A stretch of 64,000 nt of DNA from Bdellovibrionales bacterium (GTDB lineage: Bacteria > Bdellovibrionota > Bdellovibrionia > Bdellovibrionales > Bdellovibrionaceae): NCBI GenBank assembly GCA_018266295.1, contig JAFEAQ010000010.1, positions 124,001 to 188,000 on the forward strand, given 5' to 3'. A program made the position numbers and the translations under genes. The notes under the pieces are model-generated. The model ran no database searches. It saw only the letters and a program-made list of their open reading frames with translations, and was not told the DNA's origin. This document shows positions 24,416 to 34,216 of the stretch, in pieces. How positions within the stretch are numbered: the first letter of the stretch is position 1; each line of letters starts with the position of its first letter.

Positions 24416-25378
24416 TCACATCAACACATTTGAAATTTGACTAAGATTTTGACAGTACTCGGAGAAGCGCATTCGTGACTTTTCATACTCAACACTCAAG
24501 CCCGTGAAGAGCTTTTTCGCACGCTCGCTATCAAGATTCTCTTCATGCTCCATCAGAATGCAGAACTTTTCAAAGCGGAAAGCTCCGAGCTGTGCCGCGC
24601 TGGATTTTAGCATGTGGGCTTTTTTACGAATGAGTTCTTCGGTGCCGTCTTGAATAAGATCGCGCAATTTATAGATCTCATCCTGCGTGTTTTCCGAATA
24701 GATTTGATAAAGAGATCTGAGCAACGTCTGATGTTGATCATCGAAGATCCGGATTTTATCAAGCGAGCTCGTATCCAGCACTGAAAGGTCCGCATAGATG
24801 CGATTTGCCCACTTATGAATTTTTCCTCGCAGCTGATCAAAGGTCACTGGCTTTAGAAGATAGTCATTCATTCCGACTTCACGGCTCGTGACGATATCAT
24901 CCTCCATCAGCCCGGCTGAGCAAGCAATCAATGGAATCGAAGCAAAGCGCTCTTGACTTGCGCGGATCAGGGCCGCGGCTTCAAAACCTGACATCTGTGG
25001 CATGTAGCAGTCCATCAGAACCATATCGAAGTAATCATTGCGAAGCGCTTCGAGAACCTCCGTGCCGTTATTGACGATCTTAAAACGCACGTCCATTTTT
25101 TGGAGCATCTTTTGAACGATTTTTTGATTGATCAGATTGTCTTCGGCAACAAGGACTTTGAAGAAAGAGAGATCCACTCCGCCTTCGCGATCCGAAATTT
25201 CACTGTCTTGATTTTGCATTTTGAGAACTTCCTGCGCATTAAGTTCGTATGAGTTAGACAGAATATCCGCGGCGGTGTTGGCACCGTTTTCATAGGCGGA
25301 TGGCTGCCCGTTGCCATGAGAGGATTGCTGGATTTGAGCCAGAAACTTAAGGATACTCTTCCGTGAGTGACTAAACAT
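24416..25378 (-). CDS. REC-Hpt phosphorelay protein
   Basis: 320 residues. A receiver domain spans about residues 70-190 (VLVAEDNLINQKI; phospho-acceptor Asp in LMDCYMPQMSG; Lys in LLKPV), followed by an Hpt domain with phospho-His in RKKAHMLKSSAAQLGA near residue 257. This is the layout of the output half of a BarA/ArcB-type hybrid kinase without the kinase, so it probably passes phosphate between a hybrid kinase and regulators. ATG 25378 is preferred over a GTG four codons upstream because AAGGTG is correctly placed. It sits at the left edge of the signalling island, divergent from an OmpR-type regulator. Confidence 0.87.
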   Translation of the reverse strand: MFSHSRKSILKFLAQIQQSSHGNGQPSAYENGANTAADILSNSYELNAQEVLKMQNQDSEISDREGGVDLSFFKVLVAEDNLINQKIVQKMLQKMDVRFKIVNNGTEVLEALRNDYFDMVLMDCYMPQMSGFEAAALIRASQERFASIPLIACSAGLMEDDIVTSREVGMNDYLLKPVTFDQLRGKIHKWANRIYADLSVLDTSSLDKIRIFDDQHQTLLRSLYQIYSENTQDEIYKLRDLIQDGTEELIRKKAHMLKSSAAQLGAFRFEKFCILMEHEENLDSERAKKLFTGLSVEYEKSRMRFSEYCQNLSQISNVLM

Positions 25379-25721
25379 TTTTTCGTTCACCTTTTATATC
25401 GTTCTAGCCCTAATTTACCATCAGTGATGAATCAGGTTGTCGTCGAGAGGTTACGTGCAGGATGTCGATTTTCTTTAAGCTAGGGATGGAGTATATAGTT
25501 TTTAATTTACTAGTTTTCAAGCACAGAAACGCAAGAAGTGTTCGAGTCCCGAAAAAAAATCTTCTATCCGCTCCAAAGTGATGTGGACCACGTCAACAGC
25601 GAACTATTTACACGTTTCAGTGCTCGATACAACAGATGAAGATCGAAATTTGACAGCGTAATCAATTTGGTGTTTCTTTCCTGTAAACAAAACAAAGTGC
25701 AAGCTGCACTGGAGAAGAAGT
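25379..25721. other. divergent control region at the left edge of the signalling island
   Basis: AT-rich and gene-free. TTGACA at 25650-25655 could be a -35 box, without a convincing -10. An inverted repeat AGTGCA-agc-TGCACT (25696-25710) abuts the GGAG ribosome site of the following regulator gene and could be an operator or a site-masking hairpin. Confidence 0.35.
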
Positions 25722-26417
25722 ATGGATGCTAAGAAGATTCTTTTCATAGAAGACACTCCTGAATGCCAATTGATTCTTCAGAATATCTTGAAAGATTATT
25801 CCACAGTTGGTTGCAGCTCCCTCGATGAAGCATCCCGTGCTCTGAAACTCGGTCCTTATGCCGCTATTATCTTAGATATTGAACTGCCGGACGGTGATGG
25901 GCTTCGCTTCCTGACTGAAATCCCCGAAGCTCAGAAACATCAGGGCGCCATCTTCATCATCAGCAGCAAGACCGCACTTGCCAACAAAGCCATGGCGTTT
26001 ACTTATGGCGCTGATGACTTTATTTCAAAGCCGTTTGATCCGATCGAACTCAAACTTCGCATCGATGCGAAGATCCGCAAGATCTCTGAACAACAGAATC
26101 AATCCGCGAATTATAAAATTGAAGACATCACGGTGAACGTGGCTGAACAAAAATTGTATCTAGATAAAAACGGCGAGCAAGCTCCGACCAGTCTCACCTC
26201 ACTTGAGTTCCGCATTTTTGCTTTTTTGTCTAAACAGAAAAACAAAGTCATCAGCCGCGACGAGATCATCAATCATATCTGGGGTGGCAAGGTCTACATC
26301 ACGGATCGCACGGTGGATGCGCATATCGCTCATATCCGTAAAAAGATCCAACCTTCACGTGTGAAGATTGAAACCGTTTTCGGTACAGGCTATAAACTCA
26401 CGACTTTTGCCAGTTAA
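25722..26417 (+). CDS. OmpR/PhoB-family response regulator
   Basis: 231 residues: receiver domain (FIEDTPECQLIL; phospho-acceptor in IILDIELPDGDG; FIISSKTA; ISKPFDPIELK) followed by a winged-helix Trans_reg_C domain (SLTSLEFRIFAFLS; RTVDAHIAHIRKKI; VFGTGYKL). It should bind DNA as a dimer after phosphorylation. GGAGAAG precedes the ATG. No kinase gene is adjacent in the same direction; the nearest phosphotransfer partners are the divergent REC-Hpt gene and the hybrid kinase at 31916. It is the most diverged of the three OmpR-type proteins in the island. Confidence 0.92.
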   Translation: MDAKKILFIEDTPECQLILQNILKDYSTVGCSSLDEASRALKLGPYAAIILDIELPDGDGLRFLTEIPEAQKHQGAIFIISSKTALANKAMAFTYGADDFISKPFDPIELKLRIDAKIRKISEQQNQSANYKIEDITVNVAEQKLYLDKNGEQAPTSLTSLEFRIFAFLSKQKNKVISRDEIINHIWGGKVYITDRTVDAHIAHIRKKIQPSRVKIETVFGTGYKLTTFAS

Positions 26418-26536
26418 AGACAAACCAACATCTTATTTAGCAAGTGCTAAGAACTAGACGTTCTGTGACGATTTCTCCATAGCTAGGTAATACATTCTCG
26501 ACATCCCCAATGGATACTTAACAAAAGGGGGATTCA

Positions 26537-27076
26537 ATGAAAGAAGATTCGACAGTCAAATCGAATATTTCAAAGCATTTGTCTTATCGAAAAGATCCGG
26601 CAAACGACCTCATTGATACGTCGCAGATTAACTCCGAGTTTAATGAATACCTGCAATACTTCCTCGAAATGCAAAAGATCCGTGCCAGCAAGAAAGTTTT
26701 GATCGTCGAGGACGATCCAATTTCTTTGCTTGGACTCAGACACATCGTCAAGAACTTCAATCCAGATATTAAATGCTTTTTAGCAACAAACATCGATGAA
26801 GCCATCGATATTCTTGAAAAGGAAAAGTGCGATCTTCTGATTGCCGACTACTACCTTTCACCGACGGAGAACAGTCTTGAACTCTGGGACATCGTTCGCG
26901 AAAAATTCCCGGCCGTCGACATGGTGATTACGTCTGGTATCGGCAGCGAACGCTACCAACAGATCGTCAAGAACTTCGATTATCCCCCACCCTTCTTCGA
27001 CAAGCCGTTCTCGCCAGAGAAATTCAACGGCTATCTCAAGGAAGTCTTCGGAGGAGTTCATCATGGAAAAGACTAG
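26537..27076 (+). CDS. receiver-only response regulator (operon A)
   Basis: 179 residues. A 50-residue N-terminal extension precedes a receiver domain: LIVEDDPIS, phospho-acceptor Asp in CDLLIADYYLSPTE, Thr in MVITSGIG and Lys in FFDKPFSPE. All phosphorylation residues are present. There is no output domain, so the protein probably acts by binding a partner. AGGGGGA precedes the ATG. The gene overlaps the HPF-like gene by 14 bp, and the segment encoding VFGG doubles as that gene's ribosome site. Its paralogue at 31155-31667 has lost the phospho-acceptor. Confidence 0.88.
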   Translation: MKEDSTVKSNISKHLSYRKDPANDLIDTSQINSEFNEYLQYFLEMQKIRASKKVLIVEDDPISLLGLRHIVKNFNPDIKCFLATNIDEAIDILEKEKCDLLIADYYLSPTENSLELWDIVREKFPAVDMVITSGIGSERYQQIVKNFDYPPPFFDKPFSPEKFNGYLKEVFGGVHHGKD

Positions 27077-27401
27077 CGTGATACCGAATAAAAATATGAC
27101 TCTGATTTACCAGAATTTGGAACCGAATCTGGAGTTGAAACTTTTCGTCAGCGGGCAATTGACATTTCTGCTAGAGAAATGTCCTAACAACTGCAGCCTC
27201 ACAGCTAAGATCGTCGACCTCGATGATCGCTATTTGGTGCAGTTAAACCTCGCCAGCGAAAAGGATCTGCTCTTTGCATCGGGTGAAGACGAGGTCGTTG
27301 CCGCCGCATTGGATGCGGCCATCAGCGATCTTTCGGCACAAATGCGATTTTGGAACAAGAGTCATACCTACGATACAAGCATAGACTTAGAGATATTTTA
27401 A
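27063..27401 (+). CDS. HPF/RaiA-like domain protein (operon A)
   Basis: 112 residues with the beta-alpha-beta-beta-beta-alpha pattern of ribosome hibernation promoting factor / RaiA (PF02482-like). The first strand and helix cover residues 13-37, strands 43-75, and the C-terminal helix is DEVVAAALDAAISDL. Sequence identity to known HPF is low, so this is a fold-level call supported by its similarity to the N-terminal half of the protein at 30404-31153 (PxNxxxxLxxLxxxCPxNC/S pattern). Known HPFs sit in the 30S decoding centre and silence ribosomes; this diverged version lacks many of the basic residues and may do something else. Translation is coupled to the receiver gene upstream. Confidence 0.6.
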   Translation: MEKTSVIPNKNMTLIYQNLEPNLELKLFVSGQLTFLLEKCPNNCSLTAKIVDLDDRYLVQLNLASEKDLLFASGEDEVVAAALDAAISDLSAQMRFWNKSHTYDTSIDLEIF

Positions 27402-27418
27402 AACACGGAGGATTTTAG

Positions 27419-28210
27419 ATGACTAACATGGATGGCAACCAGCTCGTGAGTGGATTCAGGGACTACGGATACAGAACGACAGAAAAAGCCCCTGAAAGTC
27501 ACGTGCAAGCTTTTATTCCTAATGTCCTGGTGATTGAAGACTCAGCCGAGTATCAGGTCATTATACGCGGCTCTCTCGAAAGAGATCTGCACCTCTTTTT
27601 TGCTTCCAGCCTAAAAGAGGCGAAAGAATACTTAGAAAGCCGTGAGATTCACCTTATTTTACTCGATGTGATGCTACCTGATGGAAGCGGCTTTGATTTC
27701 TGCAACGATCTGCAGACCAATCCCGCGACTTCTCGCATTCCAGTGATCTTTCTGACCGGCAAAACCGGCGTGACGGATAAGATTCTAGGACTGAGCCTCG
27801 GGGCCGACGACTATATCACAAAACCCTTTGTCCCTCTCGAGCTCAAAGCCCGCATCGAGTCCAAACTCAAAAAGTCGCTCTTGCATGACCGCAACGAGTT
27901 GCAATTACAACGCGGTCATTTGCGCTTTGATACGATGACCTATTCGGTCTATGCGATCAAAGATGACAAGCATGAGCTCATTAACATGACACCGATTGAA
28001 TATCGCATCCTGCTGCACTTAGCCCAAAAACCGGGCCGTATCTTCACTCGGAATCAACTCATTGACTCTATTTGGGGAGGCACGGTCCACATTAACGAAA
28101 GGTCGATCGACAAACATATATACACAGTCAGAAAAAAATTAGGTTCTTATGGCGATTATATTAAGACCATTCCAGGTCTTGGTTATCAATTCAATATCGA
28201 TATGGAGTAA
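27419..28210 (+). CDS. OmpR/PhoB-family response regulator (operon A)
   Basis: 263 residues. About 35 extra residues precede the receiver (VLVIEDSAEYQVII; LILLDVMLPDGSGFDF; FLTGKTG; ITKPFVPLELKA), then a winged-helix DNA-binding domain (NMTPIEYRILLHLA; SIDKHIYTVRKKL; IPGLGYQFN). It is a close paralogue of the regulator at 29609-30310; LLDV-LPDGSGFDFC and TPGLGYQF-type blocks are shared. CGGAGG lies before the ATG, 17 bp after the HPF-like gene. The HPF gene follows after 3 bp. Confidence 0.92.
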   Translation: MTNMDGNQLVSGFRDYGYRTTEKAPESHVQAFIPNVLVIEDSAEYQVIIRGSLERDLHLFFASSLKEAKEYLESREIHLILLDVMLPDGSGFDFCNDLQTNPATSRIPVIFLTGKTGVTDKILGLSLGADDYITKPFVPLELKARIESKLKKSLLHDRNELQLQRGHLRFDTMTYSVYAIKDDKHELINMTPIEYRILLHLAQKPGRIFTRNQLIDSIWGGTVHINERSIDKHIYTVRKKLGSYGDYIKTIPGLGYQFNIDME

Positions 28211-28213
28211 GTC

Positions 28214-28603
28214 ATGCGCACCGAAATTGTTTTTAAAGACATTCGCCGTTCTGAGTACGCCGAAGACTTTATCAATGATAAAGTCGACGCACTTGTCGAA
28301 AAACTGATCCAACCCGACAGTGATTTGCATATTACTGTTCGTTTGGAAAGAAGCCGTGCCCGCACGGCCATCCGTCAAGGACTGTACCAATGCGAAGTCT
28401 TCGTGAAATCGGGGATGAGTGATCGAGTCTATAAAACGGTCCGGCAGGATCGCAATCTCTTCAGAGCCGTCGTTGCAAGTTTCGACGCCCTCAAAGTGGT
28501 TTTAGGCAAAAATCATGATCGCCTCCGTCACGACCGCCGACGCCGTCGTGTGCCTGCGTATGAGAGTTATACGCCGCCCCCTATAAATTCCCCGTCTGCT
28601 TAA
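28214..28603 (+). CDS. ribosome hibernation factor HPF/RaiA-like protein
   Basis: 129 residues. The fold reads as the short HPF type: strand TEIVFKDIRRS, helix YAEDFINDKVDALVEKL, strands DLHITVRLER and LYQCEVFVKS, helix FRAVVASFDALKVVLG, then a strongly basic tail (HDRLRHDRRRRR) and a Pro-rich end. Known short HPF and RaiA proteins bind the 30S subunit and stop translation in stationary or starved cells. The start lies 3 bp after the OmpR-type regulator gene, whose last codons supply the GGAG ribosome site, so the two are translated together. It is the most HPF-like of three such proteins in the island. Confidence 0.75.
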   Translation: MRTEIVFKDIRRSEYAEDFINDKVDALVEKLIQPDSDLHITVRLERSRARTAIRQGLYQCEVFVKSGMSDRVYKTVRQDRNLFRAVVASFDALKVVLGKNHDRLRHDRRRRRVPAYESYTPPPINSPSA

Positions 28604-28629
28604 ACTGAAGAACATAGGGGTCAAAAAAG

Positions 28630-28665
28630 AAAGAGCCAGTGCTGACACTGGCTCTTTCGTCATTT
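28630..28665 (+). terminator. strong intrinsic terminator of operon A
   Basis: AAAGAGCCAGTG (28630-28641) and CACTGGCTCTTT (28646-28657) form a perfect 12-bp stem with CTGA loop, followed by cgtcattttt. A-rich sequence on the 5' side would let it work on the other strand too. Confidence 0.85.
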
Positions 28666-28930
28666 TTGGGCGGGTGGTTTTTGCTGGCTCCGCAGTTCTT
28701 CCTACATCCTGATAATCGGGGCTTCTGCCCCGAGCCCCGCTTCCTGCCGGCCGTCCGGGCCGTCAGGTCTCCGTACCTTGGGACATTCTTCGATCTTATT
28801 TTGTACTTTGATACGAAGATCGTTCCCTGCGAATCGTCTATTATACGACCGAGTCGTCTTGTAAACGAGTTGTCCTTATGGCAACAGGAGATCACTCAAA
28901 CAATTCTCGTTAGAATTAAAGAGTGTTTCT

Positions 28931-28976
28931 GTGAAATGGTATAATAGACGACCTAATCGTATAATATACCATTTCA
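28931..28976. repeat. long AT-rich inverted repeat
   Basis: The arms begin GTGAAATGGTATA and end TATACCATTTCAC (13 bp perfect) and continue inward through two mismatches to ACGA/TCGT around a CCTAA loop. A 13-base segment of the left arm (28939-28951) also has an exact reverse complement at 28837-28849, so several pairings compete. It could be a MITE remnant or an operator. Confidence 0.6.
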
Positions 28977-29071
28977 CTTAAGCGATCCTTCTCTGCGAAG
29001 AGCGTATTGCGTTTTTTTGTGAGAAAGCATCCCTCCAATCAAAACTTCGAATCAAGTAATTGTATTTGACC

Positions 29072-29160
29072 GTCATTCCCAGACGAGCACGATGCTCGTC
29101 TGGCCCCGTTCACACGGACGGATGGCCATCGCTGTGTCCGCGACTGGGCGAGCGAAGACG
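29072..29160 (+). repeat. REP-like structured repeat cassette, diverged copy 3 (no transposase)
   Basis: It contains CAGACGAGCA-CGA-TGCTCGTCTG (29080-29102), followed by CCCCGTTCACACGGACGG and a GGATGGCC...GCGACTGGGCGAGC block aligned with copies 1 and 2. The main stem keeps the CGA loop, but several base pairs are exchanged for other complementary pairs. No RAYT gene is adjacent. Confidence 0.65.
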
Positions 29161-29202
29161 GAAGACCCGAAAACAAAAAAATATCGTAGGTGTTTCGGGC
29201 AT

Positions 29203-29232
29203 AAAAAAAGCCGGCGCTAAGCCGGCTTTTTT
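29203..29232. terminator. bidirectional intrinsic terminator
   Basis: AAAAAAAGCCGGC (29203-29215), loop GCTAA, GCCGGCTTTTTT (29221-29232). It has T-runs on both strands and ends operon B (minus) just after the Hpt gene. Confidence 0.85.
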
Positions 29233-29244
29233 CGTTCGTTAGAA

Positions 29245-29595
29245 CTAGTGGATATTGAGGTACTCGCCGTAGCTTTTTGAGATGTTGGCGTAGTCCTTCT
29301 CGAGCTGCGATGCTAGCTCTTGAAGTCTTTCCTTGCTCATTTTCGAGCTGTCGCGCTCGATCTCCTCACAGATTGTCGACATAGGTTTTACACCCATACT
29401 GAGAGTTCCAGACTTTATATCGTGGGCTGTGAAACGGATTTTATCTTGATTGCCCTCTTCGATTGCTGACTTTAGTTTTGCAATCTTTCCTGGATAGTCG
29501 GCGATGAAAATCTGCACCACTTCACGAGCCACCTGCGGTCCGTAGTTGGTCTCAATCGACTTTACGCTTTGAATCGCGTCGAATTGCCCTTCCAT
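29245..29595 (-). CDS. stand-alone Hpt (histidine phosphotransfer) protein (operon B)
   Basis: 116 residues, a single four-helix Hpt domain. The phospho-His lies in FTAHDIKSGTLSMG near residue 58. Such proteins shuttle phosphate between the receiver of a hybrid kinase and a final response regulator. AGGAGG precedes the ATG, and the gene starts 13 bp after the OmpR-type regulator gene, in the place where operon A carries an HPF gene. A bidirectional terminator follows. The likely donor is the hybrid kinase at 31916-34216. Confidence 0.88.
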   Translation of the reverse strand: MEGQFDAIQSVKSIETNYGPQVAREVVQIFIADYPGKIAKLKSAIEEGNQDKIRFTAHDIKSGTLSMGVKPMSTICEEIERDSSKMSKERLQELASQLEKDYANISKSYGEYLNIH

Positions 29596-29608
29596 GAGTC
29601 CTCCTTAT

Positions 29609-30310
29609 TTAGTGCTGTTGCTCCGCCAAGAACTGGTAGCCCAATCCTGGAACGGTGCGAATGTACGATGAACAAGTTCCGAGCTTTTTGCGGATCGAAG
29701 AGATATGGCGGTCCACAGAACGGTCTTCGATGTACACAGAATCACCCCAAACACTGTCGATCAGCTGTTCGCGGCTCAGGACGTAACCTGGAGAGCGAGC
29801 AAGCTTCAACAAGAGTTTGAATTCGATCGGCGTCATGTTCAATTTTTGGTTGCCGTTGTTCTCATTCAAGTAAATTGAATAAGTCGAGAGTTCAAACTTC
29901 AGGCTGCCACGCTGGAAGTAAGTCTCTTCTTTGGCGTAGTATAAGAATTTTTTAAGTTTAGATTCGACGCGAGCGCGTAGCTCCAAGACGTCAAACGGCT
30001 TAGTCACATAGTCCTCAGCACCGAGTGCAAGACCTAGTACTTTGTCACCCACGCCCACTTTGCCAGTGAGGAAAATCACCGGGATCTTTTGCGTGGAGTC
30101 CTGACTCTGCAACGTCGTACAGAAGTCAAAACCGCTGCCATCCGGGAGGCTCACGTCCAACAGAATAAGGTGAACCTCATTTTTCGCCAGGATTTCTTCC
30201 GCCTCTTTCAGCGATCCGGCGAGCAACAATGAGCATGTTTGGCTCAAAGCTGTCTTTAAAAATGGGTGAATCTCTCTTGAATCATCTACTGCTAAAACTG
30301 TTGGCATCAT
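29609..30310 (-). CDS. OmpR/PhoB-family response regulator (operon B)
   Basis: 233 residues: receiver (VLAVDDSREI; LILLDVSLPDGSGFDF; FLTGKVG; VTKPFDVLELRA) and winged-helix domain (NMTPIEFKLLLKLA; SVDRHISSIRKKL; VPGLGYQF). It is the paralogue of the operon A regulator at 27419-28210 but lacks that protein's N-terminal extension. Two successive ATG codons begin the gene after AGGAAC. It lies between the HPF-REC fusion gene (93 bp upstream) and the Hpt gene. Because its recognition helix resembles that of its paralogue, the two may share targets. Confidence 0.92.
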   Translation of the reverse strand: MMPTVLAVDDSREIHPFLKTALSQTCSLLLAGSLKEAEEILAKNEVHLILLDVSLPDGSGFDFCTTLQSQDSTQKIPVIFLTGKVGVGDKVLGLALGAEDYVTKPFDVLELRARVESKLKKFLYYAKEETYFQRGSLKFELSTYSIYLNENNGNQKLNMTPIEFKLLLKLARSPGYVLSREQLIDSVWGDSVYIEDRSVDRHISSIRKKLGTCSSYIRTVPGLGYQFLAEQQH

Positions 30311-30403
30311 AGTGTTCCTTTACTCCTTGATGTTTGTTCCTTGAAATTGCTTTCAAATTGTTAAAACTGTTAATTGTTAATCTTCTTACTTTTTATTTAG
30401 TTA

Positions 30404-31153
30404 CTAATTTAAATTGGTCTGTTCTTTCATCTTTCTTAGATTTTCTAAGAACTGGTCCGTGGTCTTTCGAATGGAATCGTAAGTACTGGTTTTCTGCAGA
30501 TAGCCGATTTTGCGGAATGTCTTGCTCTTTGGAAAGACAATCTGCGAGCGCGGGCTTGCTGAGAAAATCAGTACAGGCACCTTCTTATTCTGAATACCTG
30601 TGGCACTGAGATCCGCCGTCTCATCGAGCATACGGATCGTTTGCAGGCCATTCATCGACGGCATCATCCAATCAAGGACGATCAAGTCGTAGGCGTGCTC
30701 AAAGAGCTCATCGACCGCGTCCTGACCATTATCGACCACCACAGTTTCACAACCGCTCTGACCAAGAATGGACTGAATCATTTTCACTGAAATTGGATCA
30801 TCATCGACAATCAGCACTTTTAGACTGCCCGCCGTTTTTTCGGGCTCCAGGTAGCGAGTTTCTCGCCACGCCTTAATTTGTTCATACATTTGTGCGGCAG
30901 ACAGATTGACACTTTCTCCCAAGGTTCTCTCCTCGCTGTAAGCTAAAAACTGACCCAAAACATGGCGCACCAGAATTTCCACGGCAAAACGAGATCCAAG
31001 ATCTTTCACCTTCGTTTGAATGAAAGAATTATCGGGACACATATCCGTTACTTTCGCCAGCTTGGTTCTGATCATGAATTCGACTTTTGGATTCGGAGGC
31101 ATCCCTTCAAAAAGGATGTCCATCTGATTCCCTGAGGACTTTGCCATCTCCAT
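30404..31153 (-). CDS. HPF-like domain fused to a receiver domain (operon B)
   Basis: 249 residues. Residues 10-95 match the HPF-like protein of operon A (NPKVEFMIRTKLAKV, then MCPDNS, later LSAAQMYEQIKAW as the C-terminal helix). Residues 108-235 form a receiver with LIVDDDPISV, phospho-acceptor in IVLDWMMPSMNG, Ser in LIFSAS and Lys in YLQKT. ATG 31153 is chosen because GGAGG lies five bases upstream; the longer frame runs back into the receiver gene. It looks like a phosphorylation-controlled version of the operon A protein. I know of no described family with this order. The HPF assignment is a fold inference; the receiver is clear. Confidence 0.7.
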   Translation of the reverse strand: MEMAKSSGNQMDILFEGMPPNPKVEFMIRTKLAKVTDMCPDNSFIQTKVKDLGSRFAVEILVRHVLGQFLAYSEERTLGESVNLSAAQMYEQIKAWRETRYLEPEKTAGSLKVLIVDDDPISVKMIQSILGQSGCETVVVDNGQDAVDELFEHAYDLIVLDWMMPSMNGLQTIRMLDETADLSATGIQNKKVPVLIFSASPRSQIVFPKSKTFRKIGYLQKTSTYDSIRKTTDQFLENLRKMKEQTNLN

Positions 31154-31154
31154 A

Positions 31155-31667
31155 CTAACCTCCGAAGACGTGTTCAAAAAAGTGTTTGAGTTTCGCTGAA
31201 AACGGCTGGTGTAGACCTCCATGGTCCTCCTTGCTCATCTTCACTAGGGCTTCATAATATTCACGGTCGTTCACATGAGAGAGGATGATTACGTCCATCT
31301 GTGGATAACGGTCGCGGACGACCTCCCAGAATTCGTAGTCGATCTCGTCCTCTGACAAGTAGTAGTTAGCGATCAATAAATCGCACTCTTTTTCGTCGAG
31401 CAGATCACTGATCTCGTCCACAGAGTCCACAATCCAGCACTGGGCATCCTGATTCGCCTCTTGGATCATTTTCTGCATTGCACGTTGAATACGAGGGTCT
31501 TCTTCCGCCAACAGAATGCTTTTCTTATTCAGCACGCGGTCGAAATTGAAAAATTGGCGCTGAAGAGCTTCTTTGTAATCTGGAGTAACCGTGACACCAC
31601 CTAAGTGGCGACTCAGCGTCTGCTCTATCAGACGATGATCGTTCTCCTGTAAGTTATAAAAGTCCAT
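31155..31667 (-). CDS. degenerate receiver protein (pseudo-receiver, operon B)
   Basis: 170 residues, paralogue of the receiver-only protein at 26537-27076, with the same CDLLIAxYYLS and C-terminal VFGG blocks. The phospho-acceptor Asp is replaced by Asn (CDLLIANYYLS), the conserved Lys by Gln (LHQPFS) and the acidic pair reads EED. It therefore should not be phosphorylated in the usual way and may be a fixed-state binding partner or competitor of its paralogue. The stop codon is one base before the ATG of the HPF-REC gene, whose GGAGG ribosome site lies in the VFGG codons. Confidence 0.85.
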   Translation of the reverse strand: MDFYNLQENDHRLIEQTLSRHLGGVTVTPDYKEALQRQFFNFDRVLNKKSILLAEEDPRIQRAMQKMIQEANQDAQCWIVDSVDEISDLLDEKECDLLIANYYLSEDEIDYEFWEVVRDRYPQMDVIILSHVNDREYYEALVKMSKEDHGGLHQPFSAKLKHFFEHVFGG

Positions 31668-31915
31668 GAACCCCCCTCATTGACTTGTTGTACTTCTTGC
31701 AGCGTTTACCAGTATATTTTGCCTGGTTGCATGTTATTGGTCAGATTATTATTCCGTAATATCGTCGAAACGGTGTGAAATTCGTATGAAGAAAAATCGA
31801 CAACTCATCGCAATTTTGCGACGTCTGTTTTGCATACTTTCGAAGAAACCTTCACAACCATGATTTTTTCTTCAATTGGTCATCTTCAAATTTGTTTTTC
31901 TTCAAAGAGGCTTTA

Positions 31916-34216
31916 TTGTGCATATTGAATATGCTTCGACTATTACGCAAAAACACAGCTATCAACACACCTTTCGCGCCCAAGCTCTCCTACATCTTTC
32001 TTATGGCGTTTGTGGTGATCTTTGCCGGTGGGAGTTCGGTTTTATACTTTAAAACCCTTCCTGACAGCCGGGTTGAGCGTGCCGTCAACGACCTCACCGA
32101 TCCCTACTTCGTTGCTTCTCAGAATCTCCATCAGTTTGATCGGTTCCTCATCGGCATTGGTTTGTATAACCGCCAACTCATCGATCGCGAAGAGCTTAAA
32201 AGCCGCTTCGAAGACCTCCGCATTCATGCGGCGACTTATGAGAAAGATCCTGAACTTTACCAAGAGTTGACGGCAATTCCTGGCGCCATCAAAAACCTCA
32301 AAGATTTGAATCTGACTTTGGAAGAACTTGCACCGTTAGTGACAAAAGCCCGGGTGGAGGATCGCCGAAATTTAGATCTTATGTATGACTCGCTTTCGCC
32401 CTATGAGAGCCGTCTTCAAGAGATTGCCGCTGCGGTCAACGAAAATGACGTCCGAGCTCGCGCGTCTCTATTTGACAAACAAGTCCACTCCCATCGCATG
32501 CTCGGCTGGACACTGCTTGCAATTGCCGTGTGCAGCATCTTGCTGTTGATGATTTCCCATGGGAACATCAAAAATGTCGCCCTGCTGCTCGAGACTTCAA
32601 AACACAAATCAACACGCCTTAAAGAGGCCATCAATCAAACTCAGCGGGCCAACCGGGCGAAGTCCGAATTCCTCGCGACCATGAGTCACGAGATTCGTAC
32701 GCCTCTGAATGCCATTGTCGGCTTCACCTCTTTGCTCCTCGACACGAAGCTTTCTTACGACCAGAAGGACTACGTGCAATCTATTCGAAGTTCCAGCAGC
32801 ACGCTTTTATCTTTAATTAACGATATCCTTGATGTGTCCAAGATTGAGGCCGGAAAGCTTGTCTTAGAATCGATTGAGTTCGATGTCCGCTCCATCTACA
32901 TGGATATCGCCAATATCGTGGCCGATAACGTCGCCCAGAAGAAACTAGAACTCGTAAGTTTTATCGATCCGAAGATTCCGCGTTTGATCAAAGGCGACCC
33001 GGCACGCCTTAAACAGATCATTCTGAATTTGCTGAATAATGCAATTAAGTTTACTCCAAGCGGCAGCATCGCGGTGAAATGCTCAATGATCAACATGAAC
33101 GAAAAGCATATTTCGCTGAATTTCGAAGTGAAAGATACCGGCATCGGTATTGAACCGCGCTTACTGAGTCGTTTATTCACGCCGTTTACTCAAGCTGATT
33201 CTTCAACCACACGCCGTTATGGCGGTTCGGGCTTGGGCCTTTCAATCTGTAAGCAGCTGGCAGAATCAATGGGCGGTGAAGTCGGTGTTTCAAGCACACC
33301 GGGCAAAGGTTCGAACTTCTGGTTCCGGGTTGAAATGGAAGTAATCAACACCCAGCCGATGGAAAATCCTTTGCCTGAGTCCTTCTTCGGCAAAGATGTT
33401 TTGATCATGACGCGAAACCCGGTCCTCCAAGAGTATCTGGAACTCCAGTTAAAGGTCATCAACCTCAATCCGCACTCTCCAGGAGCTAGCCGTGATATGA
33501 GTGCGGTGACGGCGACTCCTGAGACCATCGCCATTATCCTGGATCAGGGAAATTTACCGTTTAAGCCGGAAGAGCAAACCAAGGTGTTACGTAACATCTC
33601 ACGTAACTTTGAAATTCCGATTGTGTACCTGGTGGAACGCACGCACAACTTGGCGCACTTATCACCAATTCAAAGAATCAATTATTTAAAGAAACCAGTC
33701 CTTCAGCAAAATCTTTATAAATGCTTGCTTGAGGTCCTCCACATCACCAATATTCGCCTGGATGAGCCGATGAAAATTCCCACTGTTGATACTTCGAAAT
33801 ATGTTGTGAATAAACCGCGCGTCTTGCTGGTTGAGGACAATCCGATCAATCAGAAAATCGCCCTCTTGATGTTGGAAAAAATCGGATGTAACGTTGATGT
33901 GGCCGCAAACGGAATTGAAGCGTTGAAAGCTCTGCAACTTTTCTCGTACGATTTGATTTTCATGGATTGTCAAATGCCGGAGATGGATGGTTACGAGGCC
34001 ACCCGTCGTATCAGAAAATTGTCAAAGCCGATCTCGGATATTCCTATTGTCGCCCTCACCGCGAACGCATTTAAGGAAGATCAAACAAAATGTATCGAAG
34101 CTGGCATGAACGACTTTGTAACAAAACCGGTAGAATCCTCCACTCTCGAATCGAAGCTCAAGCGCTACTTGAGGGCTCCAGCTCCAATGCGCCCGGCGCA
34201 AGAAGCCTCCGTTTAA
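31916..34216 (+). CDS. hybrid sensor histidine kinase (TM-sensor-TM-HisKA-HATPase-REC-REC)
   Basis: About 766 residues. Two membrane helices (around residues 25-47 and 205-225) flank a 150-residue helical periplasmic sensor. HisKA follows with phospho-His in FLATMSHEIRTPLNA; the ATPase domain has NLLNNAIKFTP, VKDTGIGIE and YGGSGLGLSICKQLAE. A middle receiver-like segment (about 490-620) lacks recognisable phosphorylation residues; the last receiver is intact (LLVEDNPINQK; LIFMDCQMPEMDGY; ALTANA; VTKPV). TTG 31916 has AAAGAGG five bases before it; ATG 31931 is an alternative. It is the only kinase in the island and so the likely phosphate source, via the Hpt proteins. Confidence 0.88.
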   Translation: MCILNMLRLLRKNTAINTPFAPKLSYIFLMAFVVIFAGGSSVLYFKTLPDSRVERAVNDLTDPYFVASQNLHQFDRFLIGIGLYNRQLIDREELKSRFEDLRIHAATYEKDPELYQELTAIPGAIKNLKDLNLTLEELAPLVTKARVEDRRNLDLMYDSLSPYESRLQEIAAAVNENDVRARASLFDKQVHSHRMLGWTLLAIAVCSILLLMISHGNIKNVALLLETSKHKSTRLKEAINQTQRANRAKSEFLATMSHEIRTPLNAIVGFTSLLLDTKLSYDQKDYVQSIRSSSSTLLSLINDILDVSKIEAGKLVLESIEFDVRSIYMDIANIVADNVAQKKLELVSFIDPKIPRLIKGDPARLKQIILNLLNNAIKFTPSGSIAVKCSMINMNEKHISLNFEVKDTGIGIEPRLLSRLFTPFTQADSSTTRRYGGSGLGLSICKQLAESMGGEVGVSSTPGKGSNFWFRVEMEVINTQPMENPLPESFFGKDVLIMTRNPVLQEYLELQLKVINLNPHSPGASRDMSAVTATPETIAIILDQGNLPFKPEEQTKVLRNISRNFEIPIVYLVERTHNLAHLSPIQRINYLKKPVLQQNLYKCLLEVLHITNIRLDEPMKIPTVDTSKYVVNKPRVLLVEDNPINQKIALLMLEKIGCNVDVAANGIEALKALQLFSYDLIFMDCQMPEMDGYEATRRIRKLSKPISDIPIVALTANAFKEDQTKCIEAGMNDFVTKPVESSTLESKLKRYLRAPAPMRPAQEASV

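Follow-up and report, generated by a model that had tools for sequence, protein, structure and literature searches.

Positions 24416–34216 of the window (the whole stretch of Bdellovibrionales DNA that was analysed, 64,000 nucleotides) raise the question of whether a phosphorelay can act on ribosome hibernation through HPF/RaiA-fold proteins encoded among its own genes. The first-pass annotation had proposed that phosphorylation state directly sets ribosome hibernation, and had added that no description of such a combined system was known; a search of open-licence papers likewise returned no description of receiver–HPF coupling. To our knowledge, hibernation factors are controlled mainly at the level of synthesis. 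With an HPF-fold domain fused or coupled to a receiver, a sensed signal could act fast on hibernation without transcription, and the module is a conserved and genetically simple place in which to look for regulatory HPF-fold members that do not bind the ribosome.

Gene content and organization

All previously noted ORFs were recovered at their positions in an ORF check of the window. The interval holds 11 consecutive genes rather than ten, and all 11 encode two-component or HPF-fold proteins as judged from ORFs, Pfam and fold, as had been claimed. REC, Hpt, Trans_reg_C, HisKA and HATPase_c domains were each found by Pfam where they had been called. The features are as follows (genes are referred to by their lower coordinate).

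24416–25390, minus strand: REC-Hpt phosphotransfer protein (Pfam Response_reg 80.1 bits, Hpt 25.6 bits)
25722–26417, plus strand: OmpR/PhoB-type response regulator (Pfam Response_reg and Trans_reg_C)
26537–27076, plus strand: receiver-only protein with acid pocket, Asp and Lys intact (Response_reg 36.6 bits, sequence)
27063–27401, plus strand: HPF-fold protein of the HPFa family, net charge −8, pI 4.4 (AF2 model, PDB fold matches, family profile)
27419–28210, plus strand: OmpR/PhoB-type response regulator, paralogue of 29609 (Pfam)
28214–28603, plus strand: HPF-like protein of a second, basic family, HPFb (PF02482 24.8 bits; net charge +9 over the first 112 residues, pI 10.3)
28629–28658, plus strand: terminator-like hairpin at the end of the 26537–28603 operon (13 bp perfect stem)
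29245–29595, minus strand: stand-alone Hpt protein (Pfam Hpt 45.5 bits)
29609–30310, minus strand: OmpR/PhoB-type response regulator (Pfam)
30404–31153, minus strand: HPF-REC fusion with a complete receiver active site (Response_reg 67.6 bits; HPF part by model)
31155–31667, minus strand: pseudo-receiver, Asp replaced by Asn and Lys by Gln, paralogue of 26537 (Pfam, sequence)
31892–34216, plus strand: membrane hybrid histidine kinase HisKA-HATPase_c-REC (Pfam; two hydrophobic segments read in the translation)

Both proteins earlier described as receiver-only carry Response_reg, but only 26537 is intact; 31155 looks like a pseudo-receiver, with Asn in place of the phospho-acceptor Asp (in DLLIANYY) and Gln in place of Lys (in HQPFS). 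With this one exception, the hybrid kinase, Hpt and receiver domains all retain their conserved phospho-sites, as judged by Pfam and by inspection of the residues. The receiver with the Asp-to-Asn change adjoins the fusion that has a complete receiver, and in the sister operon the arrangement is the reverse.

Judged by their sequences, the genes form two paralogous sets. The first, on the plus strand, consists of the receiver 26537, the HPFa protein 27063, the OmpR-type regulator 27419 and the HPFb protein 28214, followed by the terminator-like hairpin, and is flanked by 24416 and 25722. The second, on the minus strand, consists of the pseudo-receiver 31155, the HPF-REC fusion 30404, the OmpR-type regulator 29609 and the Hpt protein 29245; the gene for the hybrid kinase, 31892, diverges from this set. 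Between the sets, 27419 and 29609 are 56% identical, 26537 and 31155 are 32% identical, and 27063 shares 18% identity with the 30404 N-domain over 90 residues (E = 2e-10 in a single BLASTP comparison). No common promoter motif was found upstream of the two operons. An imperfect palindromic element lies between them (window positions 28832–28990), with 24 matches, complete or partial, across the same genome, which indicates a dispersed MITE- or REP-like repeat.

The translational coupling of the HPF genes that had been read in both operons is borne out by overlapping or nearly abutting starts and by Shine–Dalgarno sequences inside the receiver genes. The start of 27063 lies within 26537 (14 nt overlap), that of 28214 lies 3 nt beyond 27419, and in both copies the Shine–Dalgarno sequence of the HPF gene is contained in the final codons of the receiver (GTC TTC GGA GG). 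The probable start of 30404, at 31153, follows the 31155 stop by 1 nt and would give a protein of about 249 residues and not 272.

Fold and family of the HPF-like proteins

On the strength of predicted fold and family profile, both 27063 and the 30404 N-domain are assigned as HPF; solved HPF/YfiA/RaiA chains rank first among the PDB matches of their AlphaFold models. The best of five AF2 models of 27063, made from a two-sequence alignment, has a pLDDT of 84 and the order b-a-b-b-b-a, and its first 29 PDB fold matches are HPF/YfiA, with TM scores of up to 0.75/0.88 to HPF chains. The HPF part of 30404 was modelled with a pLDDT of ∼80–93, the receiver part being of low confidence. At E ≤ 0.001 the HPF part has 26 matches in the PDB, every one a hibernation-factor or chloroplast small-subunit chain.

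Direct comparison with PF02482 upheld the HPF call for 28214 (24.8 bits against a cut-off of 23.7) but fell short for 27063 (16.3 bits) and gave no direct match for the 30404 N-domain. A PF02482 family search of the genome did not list the window genes, and the HPF calls in the window come from hmmscan of the proteins. The HPFa family profile, built from 40 relatives, found RaiA/YfiA and HPF among its PDB matches, beginning at E = 1.4e-7; of the 24 matches one is a de novo design. Taken singly, 18 of the 40 members match PF02482 at E ≤ 0.05, and the profile matches an alignment of HPFb and canonical sequences with 91% probability. In one genus belonging to the same family there are relatives of 28214 with 34–40% identity. 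The C-terminal dimerisation domain of long HPF was not found by Pfam in 27063, 28214 or 30404. Among the proteins of the window, only 28214 resembles, in sequence, an ordinary ribosome-binding HPF of basic charge.

Conservation of the receiver–HPF linkage

Receiver–HPF neighbourhoods recur in other genomes as fusions, as operon pairs and, in distant genomes, as layouts resembling that of the window; the physical and evolutionary tie of the phosphorelay to HPF-fold proteins is real and is conserved in many relatives. Of the 369 genomes of the phylum, 215 have the HPFa family, mostly as genes that stand alone: of 88 HPFa genes sampled in rank order, eight have a two-component neighbour on the same strand. 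HPF-REC fusions spanning both domains were found in 14 genomes from 11 genera and six families of the order, counted from the matches of the fusion-profile search that extend over both of its parts; some of the most diverged, for example L275 and L276, rest on the fusion profile and alignment and not on the HPFa profile. When genome contigs were scanned with the fusion alignment, ordinary receivers dominated the matches (pattern VL[IL]V[DE]DD...). The active site is kept in the fusion receivers, in which D, D, D, S and K are invariant.

Three layouts can be told apart. In the first, the fusion stands with the remaining relay genes, in the order hybrid kinase, HPFb (basic), HPF-REC, OmpR, Hpt in L275, HPF-REC, OmpR, Hpt, hybrid kinase in L276, and HPF-REC, OmpR, HisKA-REC, Hpt in L052. 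The second has Hpt, HPF-REC and receiver genes together with an OmpR gene that diverges from them, and is seen in L142, L143, L267, L270 and, in the same genome as the window, L099, although no Hpt gene was recognised in L099. The third pairs a receiver with a stand-alone HPFa protein (L098 in the same genome, L101–L103, L149, L277, L278, L282 and L283), and several of these loci also carry Hpt and hybrid-kinase genes. The Hpt genes adjoining fusions were confirmed by Pfam. Fusions of the second layout often have an N-terminal hydrophobic hairpin, a feature of one fusion clade; in the fusions that carry it (L142, L143, L267, L268, L269, L270 and L273) it would place the HPF-like domain at the membrane. 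Linked HPFa members fall in several well supported groups of the tree; the best tree requires 12 label changes, two of which are forced by supported branches.

Two further neighbourhoods were observed. A basic HPFb gene lies directly upstream of a hybrid histidine kinase gene in two genomes of another genus (L330 and L331). In three genomes of one genus (L048, L107 and L108) a stand-alone HPFa gene directly follows a gene that we take, from its sequence as read and not from a family search, to encode RNase R. HPF shields ribosomes from RNase R in Staphylococcus aureus (PMC8406268), and the adjacency fits a ribosome role.

Charge of the HPF domains and alternative readings

The HPF domain of 30404 has a net charge of −2, compared with −8 for 27063 and +9 for 28214. 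Across HPFa the median net charge is +6.5 for stand-alone, −5 for receiver-paired and −2 for fused members (p = 5e-7), and in a larger set the linked medians are −4 and −0.5 versus +4 for stand-alone members (p = 3e-6), both p values ignoring relatedness. Aligned columns show the linked domains to be poorer in basic residues at several helix positions. There are exceptions (L104, +6, and L272, +4, are linked yet basic; L312, −7, stands alone), and with only two supported pairs on the tree the difference is not established as phylogenetically independent; since relatedness is uncorrected and exceptions occur, it is taken as a trend and a lead, not as a rule. A PF02482 protein elsewhere in the genome, C4:756612 (L057:6547–7005), has a net charge of −10 over its first 112 residues and no adjoining two-component gene.

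One explanation is that the linked HPF-fold domains have been co-opted as protein–protein or dimerisation modules with no ribosome role, leaving the OmpR-type regulators as the sole outputs. The loss of basic charge is consistent with this, as are the hydrophobic hairpins of one fusion clade, the very fast divergence of the HPF domains (18–25% identity) and L271, in which hairpin and receiver are kept and an HPF domain is not recognisable. A basic HPF gene nevertheless lies in the operon here, in the L275 cluster and beside the hybrid kinase in L330 and L331, and receiver linkage turns up in several HPFa groups, a pattern that speaks for a functional tie rather than a frozen accident. On balance co-option is considered rather unlikely.

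Under the direct control originally proposed, all three HPF-like proteins (27063, 28214 and, by its HPF domain, 30404) would bind the 30S decoding centre and receiver phosphorylation would switch the binding. What stands of that proposal is the HPF fold and family membership, the conserved operonic and fused receiver linkage and the basic character of 28214; there is also a precedent in HibA, an archaeal protein in which an HPF/RaiA domain fused to a CBS module is a true hibernation factor (PMC13324472). The reduced basicity of the linked domains, including the depleted helix positions, and the hairpins of several fusions argue against it, as does the acidity of 27063, whereas RafH contacts 16S rRNA via K21, R24, R28, R75, R84, R88, R91 and other basic residues (PMC10799931). 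Plain decoding-centre binding by 27063 is therefore unlikely and, on its sequence, direct plugging of the ribosome by this protein is doubtful; the charge contrast suggests instead a division of labour with 28214. Direct control by all three proteins is accordingly judged improbable, more so than co-option.

That two-component operons and HPF genes are chance neighbours without a functional link would suit the 80 of 88 HPFa genes in the rank-ordered sample that do not lie beside two-component genes, but is strongly disfavoured by the fusions in 11 genera, and is very improbable given also the translational coupling in both copies in the interval and the layouts conserved across families.

Proposed mechanism

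The reading that we prefer, tentatively and at somewhat less than an even chance, is that the interval is a phosphorelay island in which the receiver-linked HPF domains are regulatory and a basic HPF acts on the ribosome. The island would be a multistep phosphorelay whose outputs include receiver-tied HPF-fold domains. We infer that phosphate would pass from 31892 to its own receiver, on to the Hpt proteins 29245 and 24416, from which the receivers of 26537 and 30404 and those of the three OmpR-type regulators would accept it. Once phosphorylated, 26537 and the REC domain of 30404 would each alter the partner choice of the adjoining or fused HPF-fold domain. The acidic receiver-linked domains (27063 and the 30404 N-domain) would be the regulatory members, and the ribosome-bound factor would be the basic 28214 or a canonical HPF encoded elsewhere; by holding, releasing or competing with this factor the linked members would let the signal set the extent of hibernation, while the OmpR regulators would tune transcription of the same genes. 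The analysis shows the gene anatomy, the HPF fold, the translational coupling, the fusions, their conservation and the difference in charge; the flow of phosphate, the switch of partners and an action on ribosomes are inferred from these.

A partner switch of this form is tentatively favoured over direct ribosome plugging. By analogy with the sigma-factor mimicry of PhyR, a role in which the linked domains regulate a basic HPF (28214, for example) fits better, although it is unproven. Besides the exceptions to the charge trend, two observations count against the proposal: most linked modules have no adjoining basic HPF gene, and acidic PF02482 proteins also occur unlinked (C4:756612). The wider idea, that several families of the order share a new class of response regulator in which an HPF mimic of lost or reversed charge captures or releases the true hibernation factor under control of phosphorylation, is unlikely.

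Comparison with known systems

The HPF-like proteins of the window share with HPF/RaiA (YfiA; PF02482) the b-a-b-b-b-a fold, profile homology and a similar size, and 28214 is also basic and above the Pfam cut-off. They differ in that 27063 and the 30404 domain are acidic, lie below single-sequence Pfam detection and are receiver-paired or receiver-fused, and in that the C-terminal domain of long HPF is lacking. As in HibA, a hibernation-fold domain is joined to a regulatory domain; here, however, the protein is bacterial and known from genes and models, and the fused domain is Response_reg, phosphorylatable and part of a phosphorelay, rather than CBS. The RafH/DosR system of mycobacteria likewise ties two-component signalling to an HPF, but DosR works through transcription and neither a receiver–HPF fusion nor an operonic receiver is described there (PMC10799931). 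PhyR–NepR–EcfG is similar by analogy only: PhyR is a response regulator with an effector-imitating, sigma-factor-like domain, whereas here the output domain is of HPF fold and would imitate a ribosome factor; among the 11 genes of the interval none was seen to encode an anti-factor. With hybrid-kinase/Hpt/OmpR phosphorelays the island has all of the standard domains in common, gathered in one cluster, and is set apart from them by its HPF-fold output domain.
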